The notes beneath the pieces are model-generated. The model saw only the letters and a list, made by a program, of their open reading frames with translations. It made no database searches and had not been told where the DNA came from. Below, one piece after another: positions 28,025 through 45,349 of a DNA stretch of 45,527 nucleotides; the stretch's first letter is position 1, and every line of letters starts with the position of its first letter. A program made the position numbers and the translations under genes. This DNA comes from a virus, in the IMG/VR virus record IMGVR_UViG_3300036761_001572, positions 1-45,527 of that record; one strand, 5' to 3'.

Positions 28025-31000
28025 ATGAAAGAATGCTATACCGAAGCTGAGATACTTGCATTATATGAAAAATACGGCAAGTCATCCAGGGAACCCGAGG
28101 CGGCGAAAGGGGGAGCCCAGGAAATGCCTGGAATCGGCCTTGCTGGCCCCGTGGCAGGCAAAACTATTCCGGAAATCGCTACCCCTTCCCTACCTACGGG
28201 GAAACCCAAATTAACACTTGAACAACGCAAAATTCTCGATTTTCACTTTCATGAAGAAGCTATGAAGGCCAACGTTTCTCCGGAAGATCTCGGTCCTTTA
28301 TACGAAGACGCCCTCGATAACTTTGTCCCCGGTGAAGATCACGTTATCAATAGCGGTAACCGAAAAGGAGAGGTTGTCCCCGGAGCAGATGTGGCCAAGG
28401 CGATGCGTTCGTTTATTATCAACCGGAAGGTCAATGCCTTAAAGCCAAAATCTCCGAAGGACTTCCCTCTTCCTGATAAAGAAACCGGCATGACTTCGAT
28501 ATCGAGATTACGGGACAGAGACCCTGACATAACCCCGGAACACCAAGCTCAGCTGGATGCCCTTGATGTCGTTGAGCGAATTTCCGGTCCCAGCATTAAG
28601 CAGGCCATAGCCGACTTGCTGCAAGATAAAACAGTTGATGAGGTTGCTAAGGATAGGGGAATCCCCCGCAACAAGGTGTCCCGCCGAAACATTCGCGCTA
28701 AAAAACTGATTTTCGATGAGTACAAGAGAATCTTAGCTAGGGCAAGGGCAGATCCGGAGACCGTTGCAAATGCCTCTAGGCGAGATGATGAACTTGAGGC
28801 TAAGAGAAGTGCCGGAGAAAAACTATCCAAGGAAGAAGCGGAAGACTTTGTTCTTGCCAAGGTGCTTAAAGCCGGAGAACAGGGAACTATTGATTTTGGA
28901 TTCTTGTATGCAGCCTTTCCTCCCGAGTTCAGGAAGGCCATGGAGGACATGGGCGGGGCAATAGCGAAAATCGCAAATGAAGAAAACCTAAACAAAATCG
29001 AGGATTTCGGCTCAATGGCTTCACGCAAGGGCAGGGGAGGGTTGCAGAAAATTAAGGAGGGGCTTAGGGTCCCGGTTCGCTCAAAGCACTCGCGGGAATT
29101 GTCTGGTTATCTTTTAGAAAACGATAGGGAAGCATCCAGGGTTACAGCCGAAGCCGATAAATATTTCAAAGATTACTTTGCCCTGGAAGCGAAGGATCCG
29201 GAAAGATTTAGTAAAATAACCCAAACTCTTATTGATGAGGATCAGGCGAAAAAAAGATTCACGGAAGACGAACTTGTTAGCGAACGCGGGTACTCTCCAG
29301 GTGACCTAAGCGTTCATAAGCGTGCTCGAAGGGGAGTCTTGGCGCTTCAAAAATATGAAATGTGGCGCCACAAGAAGGCGTTGAAAGAAGAGCTGGACAA
29401 GTGGTTGGCAAAAGAAGACCCCGATGTAAGGGACGAAGCAAGTCGCCTTATCTCCGAAGGACGCAATGACCCGGCCAGAGCAAGAGACTTAATAAAAGAG
29501 GCGGCTTCCCTAAAAAAGGGCGAACCCGACACTAGGCTTTTCGATACAAACAAACGGGCTACCGTCATCGCCGGAGAACACTTGGCAGGCCTTTCCAAGG
29601 TGGGCTCGTCTTACATGGGAAATCCGGGATACCTGCCTCACCTGAGGCACGGGCGGTACATGATGGAGATAAAGGGGGTCCCGGTCGAGCAAGACCCAAA
29701 CCTTGCGGGCATTGAGGAAGAACCTAGGGCGATCACCATCGATGCCGAGATGTTTGATGAACTCAGCCAGACCAGGAGATTCGCTGAAAAATATCACGTT
29801 GGCGAGGTCGTTGAATTTCCAAGACCGAAGGACGGCGTACCGACCGAGTATGAGATAACAAGCATAACCGATCCGAAGAAGCCAAAGGACATGACGACCC
29901 TGAATGTCCCCGAGGAAGGCTTCATGCGGGCTGTTAACGCCTTCCCTATCTATGAGAAAACGCTTGCCAAGCACATGTCCGACGAAGAGATTAAGCATAT
30001 ACGGCAAGTCCTCTCTGACGAAACGCTGCGATTCTTTGCCCAGGGGAGGCTTGCCAAGAGAAAAAACATAGCCGGCTGGTCTCAGGATATTCCGAGATCA
30101 TTAAAACAATTCTCGGCTTCGTTTCCTCATGCCATAAATAGGCGCTACTCTATCCCCAAGGCCCAAGAGATTATTGAAAAACTTCCGACCGAGGATGCCC
30201 CCTACTCCCAAGACCTACTTGAATATTGGCGAGGCACGAAGGACAAGGAAGGCCCGGTAAACCAAGCGATCAGGTCTGCTATTTACAACTGGTATCTTGG
30301 GCTCAAGCCAGCCTTTTATCTCCTGAACTCGTCACAACCACTTTCTACAACCTTTCCCGTACTGGTGTCTTTGGTTGGGTACAAAAAAGCAGCGGCCATC
30401 TTTGGTTCAACGTCTAAGAAGTTGACTAGGATTATCGCGGACTTTACGGTTGCCTTTAAGAAAGACCGCCATGCGCAGCTCCTTGATATTACCAAGAACG
30501 CTCCGTATCTTTCCATTGCAGAGAAGAGAACCATTGAGCGCATGGCTTCGGGCGGATCAATCGGAGCATCGAGGACAAGAGAAATAATCGGCAAGAGCGA
30601 TATTTCCAAGGTGTTGAATATATTCGGAGAGCTTTCCGAGAAACAGAACAGGGTGTTTACGGCCATTGCCGGAGTTCACCTTGCTAAAACTAAGGGAGCA
30701 AAGATACAGGAAGCGATGGCCATTGCCGATGACTTAAACGACAAGACTCAGTTTGTTTATAGTAAGGCGAACCGCATGAAAATAGCCAGGGGGTGGTTGG
30801 CCCCGGTTACCATGTTTAAATCGTACTTCATGAACTTTTGGAGCCTCCAGCATGAGCTTCTTCAAACGGCATCTGTATTCAAGTCTTCGGGTCCGGATCA
30901 AGCTGGCCGCCCTCTTCTGGGCAGCCGTGACGGCGTTGGCGGAGTTGCCCCAAAACATAATTCGTTCGGACTATCTACCGCAATCTTGATAGCCCTGGGC

Positions 31001-31897
31001 GGGGTAGCGACCATTCCTGGGTATGAGTACCTGAAGGAACTAATACCAAGGCTCCTCCGGGCTACGGGAATTATAAGCGACGACGAGCCTATCGAAAAGC
31101 AGATATACGATGCCGAGAAGGCAATAGAGAAACACGACCTATCCAGGATTTTGCTTAACGGAATACCTTCGCTTGCCAACGTATCTGGAACCATGTTCGG
31201 TTCCGGGGATCCGTTTGGCATCGCCGGCTTACAGATAGTCAAATCAATCGGCCGGACGGTTCGCGGAATGTCTTCGGACGCTGGAGCTGATTGGCTTGAG
31301 CGTTTTGCCAGGGTCGCGCCAACCGAAGCTAAGCGATTAATTAGGCTTTATCAGCTGGTCGTTAAAAAGAAATTTGCGACCGATGAATATGGAAGATTGA
31401 AAATAACAGATGAAGACCTCAAGCGTTTTCCGGAACCTCATAGGGAGTGGGCCAAGAAAGCAACGGCAGCTCTTCCTAAGCCGAGCGACGTTGGCGCATG
31501 GGAAAAAATTCTTATGGCAATGGGTTTCCAAACGGAATCCAATAGGAAGTATTCGGTAGGCACCTATGCCATAAAATCAGTAGGGAAGTCTGTCCTCTCC
31601 GACAAGGGCGGGATGAATCGGGAAATCGGAAAACTCATTGCAAGCAGTTCCAATGAGGTCCTTGCGGGACGCTTTAAACGCATGACCCCAAGGGTTCTGG
31701 AATATAATTTCTCTGGTATCTTAAACAGGTTACCCCCGGATATAAGAAAGGAAATACTAAACATTAAGGCTGAATCAAAACGGACGGGGATAGCAATAAA
31801 CTATTCTTCGATCTTATCAAATATCAAGGAATTCATCGACCAGGGAAATTACCAAATAAGGAGCAACTATGGATCTCGGCGCAAAAGAGTTAGATAA
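28025..31897 (+). CDS. Giant ejection-type protein with sigma-like N-terminus
   Basis: At 1290 residues this is the largest product. Residues about 90-235 look like a shortened sigma-70 family protein: MRSFIINRKVNALK resembles region 2, RLRDRDPD the linker, and VERISGPSIKQAIADLL, then VDEVAKDRGIPRNKVSRR, a region-4 helix-turn-helix. The rest is long helices with a conserved phage internal-protein stretch near residues 910-940 (KIARGWLAPVTMFKSYFMNF) and a hydrophobic segment near 985-1005. It follows another ejection-type gene and overlaps the transglycosylase gene by 29 bases. It may carry a DNA-binding or transcription function into the cell. Confidence 0.6.
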   Translation: MKECYTEAEILALYEKYGKSSREPEAAKGGAQEMPGIGLAGPVAGKTIPEIATPSLPTGKPKLTLEQRKILDFHFHEEAMKANVSPEDLGPLYEDALDNFVPGEDHVINSGNRKGEVVPGADVAKAMRSFIINRKVNALKPKSPKDFPLPDKETGMTSISRLRDRDPDITPEHQAQLDALDVVERISGPSIKQAIADLLQDKTVDEVAKDRGIPRNKVSRRNIRAKKLIFDEYKRILARARADPETVANASRRDDELEAKRSAGEKLSKEEAEDFVLAKVLKAGEQGTIDFGFLYAAFPPEFRKAMEDMGGAIAKIANEENLNKIEDFGSMASRKGRGGLQKIKEGLRVPVRSKHSRELSGYLLENDREASRVTAEADKYFKDYFALEAKDPERFSKITQTLIDEDQAKKRFTEDELVSERGYSPGDLSVHKRARRGVLALQKYEMWRHKKALKEELDKWLAKEDPDVRDEASRLISEGRNDPARARDLIKEAASLKKGEPDTRLFDTNKRATVIAGEHLAGLSKVGSSYMGNPGYLPHLRHGRYMMEIKGVPVEQDPNLAGIEEEPRAITIDAEMFDELSQTRRFAEKYHVGEVVEFPRPKDGVPTEYEITSITDPKKPKDMTTLNVPEEGFMRAVNAFPIYEKTLAKHMSDEEIKHIRQVLSDETLRFFAQGRLAKRKNIAGWSQDIPRSLKQFSASFPHAINRRYSIPKAQEIIEKLPTEDAPYSQDLLEYWRGTKDKEGPVNQAIRSAIYNWYLGLKPAFYLLNSSQPLSTTFPVLVSLVGYKKAAAIFGSTSKKLTRIIADFTVAFKKDRHAQLLDITKNAPYLSIAEKRTIERMASGGSIGASRTREIIGKSDISKVLNIFGELSEKQNRVFTAIAGVHLAKTKGAKIQEAMAIADDLNDKTQFVYSKANRMKIARGWLAPVTMFKSYFMNFWSLQHELLQTASVFKSSGPDQAGRPLLGSRDGVGGVAPKHNSFGLSTAILIALGGVATIPGYEYLKELIPRLLRATGIISDDEPIEKQIYDAEKAIEKHDLSRILLNGIPSLANVSGTMFGSGDPFGIAGLQIVKSIGRTVRGMSSDAGADWLERFARVAPTEAKRLIRLYQLVVKKKFATDEYGRLKITDEDLKRFPEPHREWAKKATAALPKPSDVGAWEKILMAMGFQTESNRKYSVGTYAIKSVGKSVLSDKGGMNREIGKLIASSSNEVLAGRFKRMTPRVLEYNFSGILNRLPPDIRKEILNIKAESKRTGIAINYSSILSNIKEFIDQGNYQIRSNYGSRRKRVR

Positions 31898-39459: not shown

Positions 39460-40632
39460 TCATGGCTTGAATAAATCGGTGTCGGTCTGGTCTTCAGCCA
39501 ACTTTGCTCCCAGCTTGTCACGGTAATAAGCGATAGCCTTCTTGTATTCCGCTTCTTCTTTCAGGGCGTTGACACGAGCCAGCTCTGTAGACGGGATAAT
39601 CACGCCGGCCTGCGAACACGAAGCCATGATCCCGGCAAGTTCGTCCCGGAGAACGGCAAGTTGGCTATAGCCGGGGAAGTCAGCGTCTTTCCCTCCCGGC
39701 AACTCGTCAACGGTTGACGCGCCGGCCTTGGCTCCATGGATACGCTTGTCTGTTTTTGTGGTAGGCTTTTCTTCGTTGGCTGGAGCTGGTTGCGCCGCCT
39801 CCTCCGATGAAGGTTCCGGCTCTTTCTCGGCCTTATTCTGTATCGGTTCGTAGGCGTCTCCATAGATGTCCTCAATGTCCTGCGTGAATAGATCGCTCAG
39901 CCGTCCAACCGACAGGGCTGCATCTACCAGGGCTCGTTTCTTGGCCATCTTTAAAAACGTATTGACCTGGTCGAAAATGTCCGGCGAAGGAACCTTGAAC
40001 ATGGTTGTGTCAACCGCAATCTCTTGTCCCCAATAAAGTTTTTTGGTTTTGGTTTCCTTTTGGACATGTTTTGCCCGACCCCCTTGAATCTCTTTGTCAA
40101 AAAGAAGCCAATGTTCCTTGGGCTTACCGTATTTGCCTTCCGTTTCTCGCTTTTCAAGGGCGAAGTCGAACTCGAACATCGTCTGCTTGCCGCCCATAGA
40201 CTCAAGCGTTTCCTTGTTCAGGTTTCTTGAGACTTGGTCTTCCCTGATCCACCGGAAAGCATATTTCTTCTCCAACGAGTTGCACGACCCCATGCCGGAA
40301 CTGACCGGAACCCCCGCAGCGATATCGCTCAAAATGCATTCAACTTGATAGTAGAAAAACGGTTTGTCCCAATCCTCAACGGATTTTAGGATCGTGTAGT
40401 GGTCGTACAGGTTCAAGAGCTTGGCTATCTTTTCCGCCCCCGGCTTGAGGAGTGTCGGTTTCGGAGTGCCGGGGATCGTCCCAAAATCATGTCCGTCTAT
40501 CATGCTTTCCTTGACGACACGCTGGAATTCCCTAATAGCCATGAGCTTGCTTGCGGCGTCTCTTGCCGAAAGGTCGATTGCCGTGATCGTTTCCTTTCGG
40601 ACGATAAGAGCGTTTGGTTTTTCGTCACTCAT
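39460..40632 (-). CDS. KPGAEK-family protein, likely recombination partner
   Basis: This 390-residue protein has the signature DFGTIPGTPKPTLLKPGAEK at residues 49-68, seen in phage proteins from many hosts that I know only as uncharacterised. It lies directly after, and overlaps by eight bases, a RecB/Cas4-like nuclease gene, the usual place of a single-strand annealing protein. That role is therefore an inference. The last third is Glu/Pro/Ala-rich and disordered. Confidence 0.5.
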   Translation of the reverse strand: MSDEKPNALIVRKETITAIDLSARDAASKLMAIREFQRVVKESMIDGHDFGTIPGTPKPTLLKPGAEKIAKLLNLYDHYTILKSVEDWDKPFFYYQVECILSDIAAGVPVSSGMGSCNSLEKKYAFRWIREDQVSRNLNKETLESMGGKQTMFEFDFALEKRETEGKYGKPKEHWLLFDKEIQGGRAKHVQKETKTKKLYWGQEIAVDTTMFKVPSPDIFDQVNTFLKMAKKRALVDAALSVGRLSDLFTQDIEDIYGDAYEPIQNKAEKEPEPSSEEAAQPAPANEEKPTTKTDKRIHGAKAGASTVDELPGGKDADFPGYSQLAVLRDELAGIMASCSQAGVIIPSTELARVNALKEEAEYKKAIAYYRDKLGAKLAEDQTDTDLFKP

Positions 40633-41338
40633 TCTTTTTCTCCTTTTTTGCTTTCTTGATTGCTTGGCGGGCCTCTTTCTTTTTTACCTTAAATTCTTTG
40701 TATGCTTGATGAATTTGAAGGCACGAAAGAAATATAGCCTCCATGTCTCCCCATTCCTGGAGAGTTTTTACCGCATAGTCTAGGCTCTCCGCCCTGGGGG
40801 CACTAACTAACATGAGTTGATTAACTGGTCGCCCGGATTCAATTATTGAAAGGGCGTAACCGGCTAGCTGTGCCCACATATCATCGTACAACTCGTTGCC
40901 AGTCTTGAAATCAAGAACGGTCCAGGTGCCGTTTACTTTTCCGTAAAAGTCCGGTGTTCCCCCAAACCCCATCATTTCAGAGATCGTTGCCGTTTCCAAA
41001 ACAAATTCTTCCAGATTGTACCCTCCCTTCATCCAACTAAACGCCGACAGGGCCGCGTTCTCTGCCGCGTCAACCTGGTTGGGAGTAAAGTCCTTGAGGT
41101 ATTCGTCTCTTAATGGGACACGGGAGAGTTCTGTCATAATCATGGCATGGGCGAGGGTTCCGATTGCGGCTTTTTCTTCCCAAACCTTTTTGTAGTCTTT
41201 TCCCTCGGTTCCCAGCTTCCATGCCGCATAGGTAAATGCTTCTCCGGAACTATTCCATATCCGAGTAAGCGTTGTTACCCCGGGAACCTGCGTCCCGTCT
41301 GCTTTGAAATAAGGCCGATGAACCTTATCCCTTGCCAT
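40625..41338 (-). CDS. RecB/Cas4-like PD-(D/E)XK exonuclease
   Basis: The 237-residue product shows the Cas4/RecB-like nuclease core: an early GTLAHAMI histidine motif, GTPDFYG with D130, VLDFKTG with D143 and K145, then WAQLAGYAL with the conserved Gln and Tyr. Such nucleases resect DNA ends for recombination. It begins inside the upstream zinc-ribbon gene (14-base overlap). The last 25 residues are a lysine-rich tail. Confidence 0.8.
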   Translation of the reverse strand: MARDKVHRPYFKADGTQVPGVTTLTRIWNSSGEAFTYAAWKLGTEGKDYKKVWEEKAAIGTLAHAMIMTELSRVPLRDEYLKDFTPNQVDAAENAALSAFSWMKGGYNLEEFVLETATISEMMGFGGTPDFYGKVNGTWTVLDFKTGNELYDDMWAQLAGYALSIIESGRPVNQLMLVSAPRAESLDYAVKTLQEWGDMEAIFLSCLQIHQAYKEFKVKKKEARQAIKKAKKEKKNE

Positions 41339-41474
41339 TTGCCACCTTCTTTGGCTTCCTGTCCCACTTGTAGCTCTTACAGATAGGGCATACCTCAGGA
41401 CGCCTCATATACCTTGGAATCCATTGATGTCCGCACCGATAACAGGTGTAATAAGGAACCTTGATCGTTTTCAT
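41325..41474 (-). CDS. 49-residue zinc-ribbon protein
   Basis: The product reads MKTIKVPYYTCYRCGHQW, then EVCPICKSYKWDRK, a complete CxxC...CxxC ribbon with a basic tail. It is the first gene of the recombination operon, with GGAGG upstream and a strong promoter 17 bp before its start. It may bind DNA or partner the nuclease; function unknown. Confidence 0.7.
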   Translation of the reverse strand: MKTIKVPYYTCYRCGHQWIPRYMRRPEVCPICKSYKWDRKPKKVANGKG

Positions 41475-41678: not shown

Positions 41679-41888
41679 ATGATTGAAAAAAAGTTCGTTT
41701 CGGGCGGCCGGTGCGTAAACTGCGGCCATGGCATGATCTTCTCTTATGAGGAGAGGATCGAGGGGCTCTTTCATCTCGGAGACCTTGTTTGTGTCGCGTG
41801 CGGCGTGAGTCAATTCCAGCGGTGCCTTGATGTCAAGCTGCCGGAAGTGGCGCCGGACTTCGGGCCGTTGTTTGGGGGTGCAAAGTGA
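41679..41888 (+). CDS. Zinc-ribbon protein opening the MoxR operon
   Basis: A 69-residue protein with RCVNCGHGM and LVCVACGVS, a likely zinc ribbon. GAGGAGG precedes the ATG, and GGTAC-AAA-GTACC forms a small hairpin between ribosome site and start codon, which could tune translation. Its stop overlaps the GTG of the ATPase gene. The divergent gap 41475-41678 holds the leftward promoter and a GC-rich stretch; I see no clear rightward promoter. Confidence 0.65.
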   Translation: MIEKKFVSGGRCVNCGHGMIFSYEERIEGLFHLGDLVCVACGVSQFQRCLDVKLPEVAPDFGPLFGGAK

Positions 41889-42865
41889 CGCCTTCAAAAC
41901 TAAAGCTGGCCTTAAAGGTGGCAATCAAGGCGCGGCGCCCGGTGATGATTTGGGGATCTCCGGGCGTTGGGAAAAGTGCGGTTGTCCGGCAAGTGGCGGC
42001 TGACCTTGGGCTGCCTTGTCAAGATGAAAGGGTTTCGGATCGGGATCCTGTCGATTTCCGGGGCCTTCCTCATGTCGTGGACGGCGTGACGCTTTGGACG
42101 TTGCCGGGGTTCCTTCCGGTGTCCGGGTCCGGGATTCTCTTCCTAGACGAGCTAAGCGCCGCGCCTCCGGCAATTCAGGCGGTCGCGTATCAACTGATAC
42201 TGGATCGGCGGCTGGGTGATTACAGGCTGCCGGAGGGTTGGTCAATCTTGGCGGCGGGCAATCTGGAAAGCGATCGGGCGGTTGTTTCCCGCATGTCGTC
42301 CGCTCTGGCCAATAGGTTTGTCCATCTGTCCTTCGATGTCGATCTTAACGACTGGGTCGGCTGGGCTCTTGATAATGGGATACGTCCCGAGATTGTCGCG
42401 TTCCTTCGGTTTCGTCCGGAGCTTCTCTTTTCCTTCGATGCGGCGCGGGGTGAAAAGTCTTTCCCTTCGCCTAGAACTTGGGAATTCGTTTCTGACCTTA
42501 TGCGGGCCGATGGTCAAGCTTGTGAAGCGGAGCTAATTCAAGGGGCGGTCGGTGAGGGGGCCGGGGTGGAATTTCTGGGATTCCTTCGAACGTTCCGGGA
42601 CCTGCCGGATATCGACGGGATTATTAAGGATCCGGCGGGGTCAATAGTTCCATCCGGTCCGGCGGCTCTGTATGCGGTGTGTTCGGCTCTGGCGCGGCGG
42701 GTGTCGTCGGTTACGTTCGGGGCGGTGATGGCCTATACCGGGCGGCTGGCTGGCGAATACCAGGCGCTATTTGTAAAGGACGCTCTCCGGATTCATCCGT
42801 GGACTGATTCTCACGGGGCGTTTATCGACTGGGCGGTAAAAAATTCTTGGCTGTTGAAAGGATAG
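41885..42865 (+). CDS. MoxR-type AAA+ ATPase
   Basis: The 326-residue protein has Walker A GSPGVGKS (residues 24-31), Walker B ILFLDEL (D88, E89), a sensor-1 AAGN (N126) and an arginine finger in LANRF (R144), the MoxR branch of AAA+ ATPases. These remodel or insert metal into partner proteins, usually working with VWA-domain proteins encoded beside them, as here. GTG start overlaps the previous stop. Confidence 0.85.
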   Translation: MTPSKLKLALKVAIKARRPVMIWGSPGVGKSAVVRQVAADLGLPCQDERVSDRDPVDFRGLPHVVDGVTLWTLPGFLPVSGSGILFLDELSAAPPAIQAVAYQLILDRRLGDYRLPEGWSILAAGNLESDRAVVSRMSSALANRFVHLSFDVDLNDWVGWALDNGIRPEIVAFLRFRPELLFSFDAARGEKSFPSPRTWEFVSDLMRADGQACEAELIQGAVGEGAGVEFLGFLRTFRDLPDIDGIIKDPAGSIVPSGPAALYAVCSALARRVSSVTFGAVMAYTGRLAGEYQALFVKDALRIHPWTDSHGAFIDWAVKNSWLLKG

Positions 42866-42869
42866 GAAA

Positions 42870-43724
42870 ATGAATTTATCTGACAAAGCAATGCTGGTCA
42901 ATCTGTCAATTTCTGCATGGTCCGGGCGTAAGCTTGATAGGAAAATTACGGGTGAAGTTACGGCTGCCCATGGGGCGGATCGTGATGCGGGCCGGTGGAA
43001 TAAGAATTTGGTTCTCGGGTCGGCGTTAGACGAAGTGAAAAAGGCTGCCGGGGATTCGAGGACGTTCCACTACTTTAACTCTCTGCCGTGGACTGATGAC
43101 GGGTCAAGGATACTGACGGCGGCGTTATTCCTCAAGTATTCGGGTGAGATAGGCAAGCTCGAACGGGCGTTTAACCTGGCGGTTGACAAGTTCATCCAGG
43201 GCTATTCTCTGGTAATTGATAACGCTCGGATCTCGCTCGGGGATATGTTTAACGAGTCGGATTATCCTTCCGAGTCTGAAGTCCGGGGCAAGTTCTCTTT
43301 CCAGGTCAAGTTCCTGCCGTTGCCATCCGGGGATGATTTCAGGGTTGACTTGTCGGCTGGGGACGTGGCGCGGATAAAGGCTGATATTGAGTGCCAGCTT
43401 CAAGCGGCGACAAGTGCGGCGATGACTGACCTTTGGAGTCGGCTGCATGGTGCGGTCCGGGCGATGGCTGACAAGCTCAAGGACGGGGACGCGATTTTCA
43501 GGGATTCGCTTGTCGGCAATATCAAAGAGCTTGTCGATATACTTCCGGCCTTGAACCTGACGGGGGACGCGGCCTTAACGGCTGCCGTTGTCGAGGTCAA
43601 GAACCGGCTGGCGTGCTATTCACCTGACGTCCTTCGGTTTCATGAAATTGAGCGGTCTCAGGTGGCGGCGGCTGCTGACGAAATAGCCCGGAAAATGTCC
43701 GGCTATTGTGGCGGCGTGCTATGA
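42870..43724 (+). CDS. DUF3150-like protein
   Basis: A 284-residue protein opening MLVNLSISAWSGRKLDRK after a short leader, which matches my memory of the DUF3150 family found in phages between MoxR and VWA genes. It has a mixed N-terminal half and a helical C-terminal half. No catalytic motif is seen. It starts four bases after the ATPase and ends in an ATGA overlap with the peptidase gene, so the three products are probably made together and act as one complex. Confidence 0.6.
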   Translation: MNLSDKAMLVNLSISAWSGRKLDRKITGEVTAAHGADRDAGRWNKNLVLGSALDEVKKAAGDSRTFHYFNSLPWTDDGSRILTAALFLKYSGEIGKLERAFNLAVDKFIQGYSLVIDNARISLGDMFNESDYPSESEVRGKFSFQVKFLPLPSGDDFRVDLSAGDVARIKADIECQLQAATSAAMTDLWSRLHGAVRAMADKLKDGDAIFRDSLVGNIKELVDILPALNLTGDAALTAAVVEVKNRLACYSPDVLRFHEIERSQVAAAADEIARKMSGYCGGVL

Positions 43725-44848
43725 CACTGGAAGAGCGGATAAAGCGGGCGCGGGTTCAATTGGTATTGAGGGAGCCGTTCTTCGGTCGGCTGGTGTTGCG
43801 CTTGGACATGGTAGAGGATCTAAAGGCGGATACTATTTGGACTGACGGGCGGCGGATCGGATACCGTCCGGATTTTGTCAATGGGCTAACGGATCTCGAG
43901 CTTCAAGGGACGTTGGTCCATGAGGTGATGCATTGTGCTAACTTACATCCATATAGGCGTGAAAGTCGGGATCCTAAAAAGTGGAATATCGCTTGTGACT
44001 TGGCTATTAACGGGCTGGTCCTTCAAGCGGGGTTCGCGTTGCCGTCCGGCGTGCTACATGATAGCAAGCTAGACGGTCAAGCGGCTGAGCGGATTTATCT
44101 CGGGCTGCCGGATCAGGATCCTCAAGCGGGCGGCGCCGGTTCGTTCGACGAAGTGCGGGACGGTGGCGGGGAGGGCGGGTTCGGTCAAGCTCCAAGGGCG
44201 GGCGGGTCAAGTGAGGATATTCAGGCGGCTGCGGAAGAGTGGCGCGGCGCGGTCGTCCAGGCTGCCGGCGCGGCTGCCGGCAAGCTGCCGGCGGGCTTCG
44301 ATAGGCTGATAAAGCGTATCCGGCGGGGTCGCGTAGACTGGCGGGCGGTCCTGCGGCAGTTCCTCAATCAAGTGCGGGCGTGCGATTATACTTGGTCGCG
44401 TCCATCCAGGCGGCATATATCAAGCGGCCTTATTCTCCCTTCCATGCGGTCTATTGAGTGCGGGCTGGTAGTGTTCGCGTTCGATACGTCCGGAAGTATG
44501 TGTCAATCAATTCTAGATAAGGCATGGGCCGAGTGCGTGAGTGCGCTGGAGGACGTCCGTCCGGAAGCTTACTTGATAGCGTGTGATTCTAAAGTTCAAC
44601 GGATCGAACATATTGAGGGCGGGGATCCTCTACCTGACAAGCTAAACCTGCCGGGTGGCGGGGGGACTGACTTCCGTCCGGTGTTCGATAGGATCGCGAC
44701 TGACGGGCTGCTTCCGGCTGTCGTCGTGTACTTCACTGACTTGGACGGGTGTTTCCCTTCGTTCATGCCGGGCTATCCGGTGCTTTGGATTACTGACGAC
44801 GACAAGACACTAGCGCCGTTCGGGCTGACGCTGCCGGTGCTTTCATGA
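43721..44848 (+). CDS. VWA-domain zinc metallopeptidase-like protein
   Basis: This 375-residue protein joins two domains. The N-terminal part has LVHEVMHCANLHP with H67, E68 and H71, and WNIACDLAIN with D93, like the DUF2201 metallopeptidase-type proteins. After a Gly-rich linker (residues about 135-165), the C-terminal VWA domain has FDTSGSM (D255, S257, S259), T316-D317 and D340, a complete metal-ion-dependent adhesion site. Partner of the MoxR ATPase by family and operon. ATG overlaps the previous stop; its own stop overlaps the next ATG. Confidence 0.82.
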   Translation: MTLEERIKRARVQLVLREPFFGRLVLRLDMVEDLKADTIWTDGRRIGYRPDFVNGLTDLELQGTLVHEVMHCANLHPYRRESRDPKKWNIACDLAINGLVLQAGFALPSGVLHDSKLDGQAAERIYLGLPDQDPQAGGAGSFDEVRDGGGEGGFGQAPRAGGSSEDIQAAAEEWRGAVVQAAGAAAGKLPAGFDRLIKRIRRGRVDWRAVLRQFLNQVRACDYTWSRPSRRHISSGLILPSMRSIECGLVVFAFDTSGSMCQSILDKAWAECVSALEDVRPEAYLIACDSKVQRIEHIEGGDPLPDKLNLPGGGGTDFRPVFDRIATDGLLPAVVVYFTDLDGCFPSFMPGYPVLWITDDDKTLAPFGLTLPVLS

Positions 44849-44916
44849 TGGACTTGGCTGTTGTCCTTTGGGTCGCTTTCTGGATTTGGCTATTCGGTCG
44901 GCGGGGTCGGCGGTGA
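44845..44916 (+). CDS. 23-residue membrane microprotein
   Basis: The frame reads MMDLAVVLWVAFWIWLF followed by GRRGRR: one membrane-length hydrophobic segment with a basic tail, expected to sit with the tail in the cytoplasm. It starts by ATGA overlap with the peptidase gene and ends by GTGA overlap with the next, so coupling supports translation. It may anchor the complex to the membrane. No own ribosome site is evident. Confidence 0.5.
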   Translation: MMDLAVVLWVAFWIWLFGRRGRR

Positions 44917-45140
44917 GAGTTCCAAGGCGGGCGATAGCTGCGGCCGTTGCGGCTGAGATAGAGCAGGGGAATCTATTTGAAGCGGCTGAGACTTTTGCGT
45001 GGCGGAAAGAGTGGCCTTCAAAGACTGAGCCTTGGCGGGCATATTCAGCAATGGGGCGGGTAGCGGCTGAGTTCGGTGTCAATCCGCTAGCGCTGCGGCG
45101 CGTCCTTCGAGGGCGGCGATATATTCGAGGGCTCAAGTGA
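44913..45140 (+). CDS. Small HTH-like protein, tandem copy 1
   Basis: The 75-residue product starts MRVPRRAIAAAVAAEIEQG and ends with AAEFGVNPLALRRVLRGR, a probable helix-turn-helix. The GTG at 44913 was chosen because it matches the start of the second copy and overlaps the previous stop; a TTG at 44868 would extend it through the microprotein. Its stop overlaps the next GTG. Confidence 0.6.
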   Translation: MRVPRRAIAAAVAAEIEQGNLFEAAETFAWRKEWPSKTEPWRAYSAMGRVAAEFGVNPLALRRVLRGRRYIRGLK

Positions 45141-45349
45141 GTGCGTCAAGGCGTGATATAGCGGCTGCCGTTGCGGCTGAGATAGAGCAGGGGCCTATGT
45201 GGCAAGCGGCGAATTTTTATAAAGAAACGTCCGAGGACTGTTTGGCGAGAGCTTATCTTTGGCCCACGTCAACGGTGGCGCGGCTTTTCCATGTCCATGT
45301 CCAGGATCTCGAGCGCGTCCTCCGAGGGCGTAAGGCGTCCAGGTCCTAG
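45137..45349 (+). CDS. Small HTH-like protein, tandem copy 2
   Basis: A 70-residue paralogue of the preceding product: MSASRRDIAAAVAAEIEQG at the start and VARLFHVHVQDLERVLRGR near the end, with a different middle. The shared 5' DNA (about 30 bases nearly identical) shows a fairly recent duplication. It is the last gene of the rightward operon before the hairpin at 45362. Confidence 0.6.
   Translation: MSASRRDIAAAVAAEIEQGPMWQAANFYKETSEDCLARAYLWPTSTVARLFHVHVQDLERVLRGRKASRS

Follow-up and report, generated by a model that had tools for sequence, protein, structure and literature searches.

The window, meaning the whole 45,527-base stretch of DNA analysed here, is an IMG/VR virus record classed as linear. 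Terminase, portal and major head genes lie on its + strand, a block of replication and exonuclease genes on its - strand. A + strand operon occupies the right end, and runs from a zinc-ribbon protein through an ATPase (M), a middle protein (D) and a zincin-VWA protein (V) to small proteins ending at 45349 (Table 1). A three-gene operon had been predicted at 41679-45349, and small corrections only are needed: its ORFs are real, and the catalytic and metal-site residues are intact.

Table 1. Features of the operon and of its divergent neighbours
Feature	Position	Strand	Basis or remark
Small zinc-ribbon protein P0001 (CVNCGHG...CVACG)	41679..41888	+	First gene of the operon; weak zinc-ribbon matches only
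M, MoxR/midasin-type AAA+ ATPase P0002, 326 aa, GTG start	41885..42865	+	PHROG 1297, motifs
D, divergent DUF3150-like protein P0003, 284 aa	42870..43724	+	Profile comparison, intermediates, fold
V, zincin (DUF2201_N) + VWA (DUF2201) protein P0004	43721..44848	+	Pfam, motifs, fold
HEVMH zinc/peptidase motif of V, residues 67-71	43919..43933	+	Motif
DTSGS MIDAS motif of V, residues 255-259	44483..44497	+	Motif
Possible 23-aa hydrophobic peptide MMDLAVVLWVAFWIWLFGRRGRR, basic tail	44845..44916	+	ORF, 4-base overlaps on both sides
Small basic protein P0008; longer TTG-start form P0005 from 44868	44913..45140	+	Paralogue of P0006
Small protein P0006	45137..45349	+	Paralogue of P0005, 41% over 81 aa
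PD-(D/E)XK exonuclease, divergent neighbour	40625..41338	-	PHROG 298; context, outside the machine
Second small zinc-ribbon protein (CYRCGHQW...CPICKSYKWDRKP)	41325-41474	-	Diverges from the first; lies upstream of the exonuclease

The junctions measure -4 bases between zinc ribbon and M, +4 between M and D, -4 between D and V, +19 between V and P0005 (from its first TTG start) and -4 between P0005 and P0006. Overlaps of 4 bases are found at three of the five annotated junctions, and the claim that nearly all genes are joined in this way was too broad, given the values at M-D and V-P0005. The +19 gap would be filled by the ORF at 44845-44916 together with a GTG start at 44913, via ATGA and GTGA overlaps; the product of this ORF is a possible membrane micropeptide. 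As to the flanking proteins, the zinc ribbon originally described is present, but the end proteins, described as HTH-like, match no family. The tandem paralogous small basic proteins encoded 3' of V at 44913-45349 (+) (IAAAVAAEIEQG) are likewise without family match. Neither the zinc ribbon nor the two small end proteins have relatives at the other triad loci compared; for this reason they are not counted among the conserved parts, and were dropped as components of the machine. The GC content is 57% at 41679-45349, whereas the remainder of the window averages about 50%; the excess is consistent with import as a cassette. A near-DNA search in phage records returned no match.

The ATPase, the middle protein and the zincin-VWA protein

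M carries a Walker A (GSPGVGKS, with K30) and a Walker B (ILFLDE) motif, and sensor-1 N126, R144 and R197, which are conserved in 148/148 aligned M proteins. At the second acidic position of Walker B the window has Glu, and 106 of the 148 relatives have Asp. M matches AAA_5 in Pfam (E 5.6e-6) and PHROG 1297 (E 2.2e-96), and resembles midasin (E 4e-44) as well as NorQ/CbbQ/CobS. Its bpMoxR match stays below the cut-off (21.9 vs 27 bits). With Walker A/B, sensor 1 and the Arg finger intact, M belongs to the MoxR/midasin clade of AAA+ proteins, and is adjoined by a MIDAS-bearing VWA protein, as expected of a MoxR-type AAA+/VWA chaperone pair. An ATPase with all core motifs had been foreseen, and these motifs are present.

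D was anticipated to be DUF3150-like. Because its direct match to DUF3150 (PF11348; E 0.018, 14.8 bits) falls below the gathering score of 24.9, assignment by Pfam match was rejected, and P0003 is termed DUF3150-like. The D-family profile picks up a protein (L159; 114 bits) which itself passes the DUF3150 cut-off (41.5 bits), and hhalign of the D family against plasmid DUF3150 proteins gives 92% probability (E 7.5e-7). The AlphaFold (AF2) model of D (pLDDT 87) is chiefly helical with a small beta part, and its top BFVD (viral) fold match is a protein named DUF3150 (TM-score 0.86). Searches of NCBIfam, PDB sequences and PDB folds gave nothing significant. Intermediates, profile and predicted fold concur in indicating that D is homologous to DUF3150, as proposed. 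More distant DUF3150-like proteins (L156-L177) of Desulfobacterota and Planctomycetes adjoin a PF00004 AAA ATPase, a family found in 16 loci; some of these loci also carry DUF1257, and genes for SSB, SWIM, exonuclease and helicase-like proteins lie nearby. As D-type proteins accompany a different AAA ATPase there, these neighbourhoods support D as a putative partner of AAA ATPases. A single origin of D was discarded, since the V tree, the root of which is unsure, implies that D was gained or lost several times (6 changes, at least 3 of them forced). No published function of either DUF3150 or DUF2201 was found in a literature search.

V scores above the gathering threshold in both DUF2201 halves, DUF2201_N (PF13203; E 2.6e-52, 178.5 vs 23.2 bits) and the VWA half DUF2201 (PF09967; E 4.1e-21, 75.8 vs 26.4 bits). 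The two-domain organization that had been read from this gene is confirmed: HEVMH supplies H67, E68 and H71, and the VWA metal site is complete (MIDAS D255-S257-S259, T316, D340). D93 adds a third ligand to the HExxH, as in zincins, the assignment of this ligand being drawn from conservation. V also matches PHROG 1314, which is labelled HNH endonuclease. The sequence gives no support to this identity, and no Pfam match backs the label. No match of P0004 to the CobT family was found at E up to 1. In the AlphaFold model of V (pLDDT 84) the N-terminal half is ordered and is followed by a low-confidence linker (about 137-161), then by a VWA fold. Compared with the PDB, the modelled VWA retrieves NorD of NorQD (E 1.2e-3) and the midasin MIDAS domain, the N-terminal half selecase (probability 0.99, E 0.024).

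Residues were compared among 166 V proteins, all 300 aa or longer, 108 of which are phage or virus rows. H67, E68, H71, H76, N89 and D93 are invariant in 108/108 phage and virus proteins, and D255-S257-S259 is kept in 166/166. A broken ATPase or a missing zincin had been named as findings that would speak against the original prediction; neither applies, as M retains its ATPase motifs and the aligned phage proteins do not vary at the zincin site. The HExxH is changed, with the MIDAS intact, in 6 of the 58 plasmid/genome proteins (L015, L118, L134, L139, L144, L146). Four of them, from Paraburkholderia, read L, K, Q and Q at positions 67, 68, 71 and 93, one carries E68D, and one H67Q plus E68L. 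Within the LKQQ clade V has a dN/dS of 0.07-0.10, M and D have values of 0.02-0.08, and these figures indicate that the genes are retained under purifying selection. Loss of the peptidase site in such a clade counts against cleavage being the function everywhere, and suggests that remodelling can suffice in this plasmid lineage. Conservation of E68 in phages, in turn, favours a real peptidase there.

Distribution and genomic context

Among viral contigs the D profile identified 235 relatives, and the 80 with the best matches were examined. In all 80 D resides in a complete triad, or in one cut solely by the contig end. M, D and V occur together in 73/80 loci, and in M-D-V order in 70/80; in the other 7 a partner is missing or fragmentary at a contig end, with 413 bases or less on that side or, in L037, with V truncated by the start of the contig. 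The presence of all three genes in other phages, on which the original prediction depended, is thus established. Genome contigs added 58 loci (L098-L155), largely Burkholderiales replicons, and most host the same set, some truncated; T4SS genes lie 3' of the triad in 34 loci of Burkholderiales replicons. In PLSDB, D was found in 44 plasmids and V in 103. Among annotated phages V is present in 608 records and M in 850, D in only 3. These counts indicate that the M-V pair is widespread, and that it is chiefly uncultured phages and plasmids in which the triad is common.

The pair itself is already known. In coliphage N4 the core genes gp24 and gp25 (PHROG 1297 and 1314) encode a homologous ATPase and a DUF2201 zincin-VWA protein in the same order, at 28-29% identity, but with no DUF3150-like gene in between. 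They are middle genes of unknown function (PMC4193335, PMC7650795), flanked by the middle RNA polymerase genes on one side and the replication genes on the other. The genome-wide CRISPRi-ART screens found in the literature searched concern phages T4, T5, SUSP1 and PTXU04, not N4. Group 2.2 jumbo phages carry, according to the description of PMC7824862, a pair made of MoxR and a metallopeptidase-vWA protein, the metallopeptidase being N-terminal, again without a third protein. Pairs of this type were seen in PA5oct, phage G and Vibrio 2.275.O, and D was not found alongside the pair in N4, PA5oct, Bacillus phage G and others. What has apparently gone unreported is D as a standard third part, and the link to plasmid ATPase-DUF3150-VWA operons.

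Such operons reside in IncC, IncT and IncP-7 plasmids. ORF101-103 of pCAR1 and the MoxR-DUF3150-VWA genes of IncC and IncT plasmids (PMC2642839) share with the triad the three-part order, a DUF3150 middle protein and a VWA protein with invariant HExxH and N..xD. In pCAR1, IncC and IncT plasmids the DUF3150-VWA genes lie near Bet/RecT and a lambda-type exonuclease, which they follow, with the ATPase mostly directly 5' of them. They differ from the triad in that the ATPase is CbbQ/NorQ-like, the VWA is of the generic PF00092 type and not DUF2201, and the proteins are longer; homology of D and V is detected by profile only (92% and 74% probability, respectively). The HExxH and N..xD motifs of the plasmid VWA proteins align with those of V in this comparison (E 2.9e-5), and the zincin halves are likely related.

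In viral loci the triad lies on the same strand as genes for DNA polymerase (54/54), exonuclease (36/36) and helicase (25/25), and opposite those for terminase (39/39) and portal (21/21; family named from its place), counts which include near relatives and loci that are not all independent events. In the window 340 bp separate the triad from the divergently oriented exonuclease; the triad also diverges from the replication genes and shares the strand with the late genes. The window alone is consequently indecisive, and timing rests on the relatives. Gene order and strand agree better with an early or middle role, in DNA metabolism or establishment, than with one in virion assembly, and the context points to DNA replication, recombination or establishment rather than to host disarming or rival exclusion.

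A candidate remodelling machine and its alternatives

In the reading that we favour, to which we give a probability of about one half, M, D and V would form a single ATP-driven machine of mobile DNA, able to remodel and probably to cleave proteins, and used in the early or middle phase of the cycle of the element. The M ring would engage V by its VWA half, and pull or twist it, as NorQ does with NorD; in NorQD the AAA+ ring takes hold of the VWA protein by a finger, and twists a linker (PMC9976466, PMC13036017). The choice of target may fall to the MIDAS of V and to the helical D, and the zincin half would cut this target once opened. In peptidase-dead relatives the complex would remodel the target only. 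This target would most likely be a protein, either of the element or of the host, sitting at replicating, recombining or newly entered DNA. Gene set, intact motifs, linkage, conservation and context are observed; complex formation, proteolysis and the identity of the target we infer. The occurrence of pairs apparently lacking D, as in N4, PA5oct and Bacillus phage G, counts against this reading. A self-contained MoxR/VWA remodelling machine including a zincin, as originally envisaged, is backed by sequence, predicted fold, near-perfect co-occurrence and strict co-orientation.

MoxR-clade AAA+ proteins with a MIDAS-bearing VWA partner or domain are also found in NorQD, RavA-ViaA, CobST and midasin. 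To our knowledge, the VWA partners of these systems are not fused to a zincin. In the triad V has this fusion, and a DUF3150-like partner is present as well. The MoxR-vWA ternary conflict systems (PMC7159879) similarly combine MoxR, vWA and a third protein. In the triad, however, the third protein is not VMAP, iSTAND or FtsH, and the vWA protein has no variable C-terminal effectors; family searches of the triad found neither VMAP, iSTAND, FtsH or beta-propeller partners nor such effectors. Two phage proteins called CobT (L204:1513-4023, L205:1620-3965) feature HEVAH and N-xx-ED before the VWA, and lie together with CobS upstream of DNA polymerase.

It is unlikely, in our opinion, that the machine serves host takeover or counter-defence, by inactivating a host protein such as a defence factor on behalf of incoming phage or plasmid DNA. 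Phages and conjugative plasmids share the triad and face the same defences, rIIA/rIIB genes lie nearby in N4 and in a vequintavirus, and the GC excess suggests cassette import. Counter-defence genes, on the other hand, are usually patchy, while the pair is core in N4-like phages and its active site is conserved. No match names such a role: PADLOC, which contains defence rather than counter-defence models, gave weak generic AAA matches only. The purpose first put forward, disarming a host protein or excluding rival phages, has no direct support, and the original prediction is, taken overall, partly supported. A virion role, in which M and V act as assembly chaperone and maturation protease on structural proteins, has been proposed for the jumbo phage pair by analogy with Acidianus two-tailed virus (PMC7824862). 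In roseophage RPP1 mid-phase structural genes lie near gp24/gp25 homologues (PMC4193335), and the PA5oct ATPase carries an ESI-MS/MS note, which may signify presence in the virion and to that extent weighs against the reading favoured above. Yet in every viral locus scored the triad runs against terminase and portal, its direction is that of the DNA polymerase, and it is found in conjugative plasmids, which build no virion; we regard such a role as quite unlikely.

Well-studied MoxR/VWA relatives matched here, NorQD and CobS, insert metals. The triad could similarly load a metal into an enzyme, with the HExxH holding the metal without cutting; phage CobS/CobT have been proposed to hijack host CobN (PMC8651126), and phage CobT-like proteins carry an HExxH as well. 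However, no recurrent metalloenzyme gene was recognised among the neighbour families named, and E68, needed by a protease but dispensable for a metal carrier, is invariant in phages. Moreover, the one phage CobT-like protein compared, from RHEph10, aligns with true CobT in the VWA half only. Metal insertion seems to us improbable. That the operon is a degenerate or decorative cassette, functionless in this phage, is hardly credible: GC content is atypical and GTG/TTG starts are used, but all catalytic residues are intact, stops are absent, overlaps are tight, and conservation elsewhere is strong.

The machine we favour could have a wider extension, which we advance as a doubtful conjecture. 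According to it, one MoxR AAA+/DUF3150 adaptor/zincin-VWA machine would be common to tailed phages, IncC-type conjugative plasmids and other mobile elements, would clear or cut DNA-bound proteins for establishment or recombination, and would include genes now annotated as phage CobT or HNH endonuclease, some plasmid lineages operating without proteolysis.

The M-V pair is a core component of a model coliphage and of its family (Schitoviridae), and more than a thousand sequenced plasmids, the majority of them predicted to be conjugative, carry DUF3150 genes (for the pCAR1 type, 1,139 records, 983 of them predicted conjugative). Joining the phage triad to the plasmid DUF3150 operons turns them into one question, for which several laboratory systems are tractable, and in the natural peptidase-dead lineage remodelling stands apart from cleavage. 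The comparison also corrects the HNH endonuclease label of PHROG 1314 and, perhaps, that of phage CobT.

Elsewhere in the window, the + strand region 28025-31897 encodes a 1290-aa protein, part of which resembles DarB-type antirestriction and other giant phage proteins (PHROG 11358, 10089).
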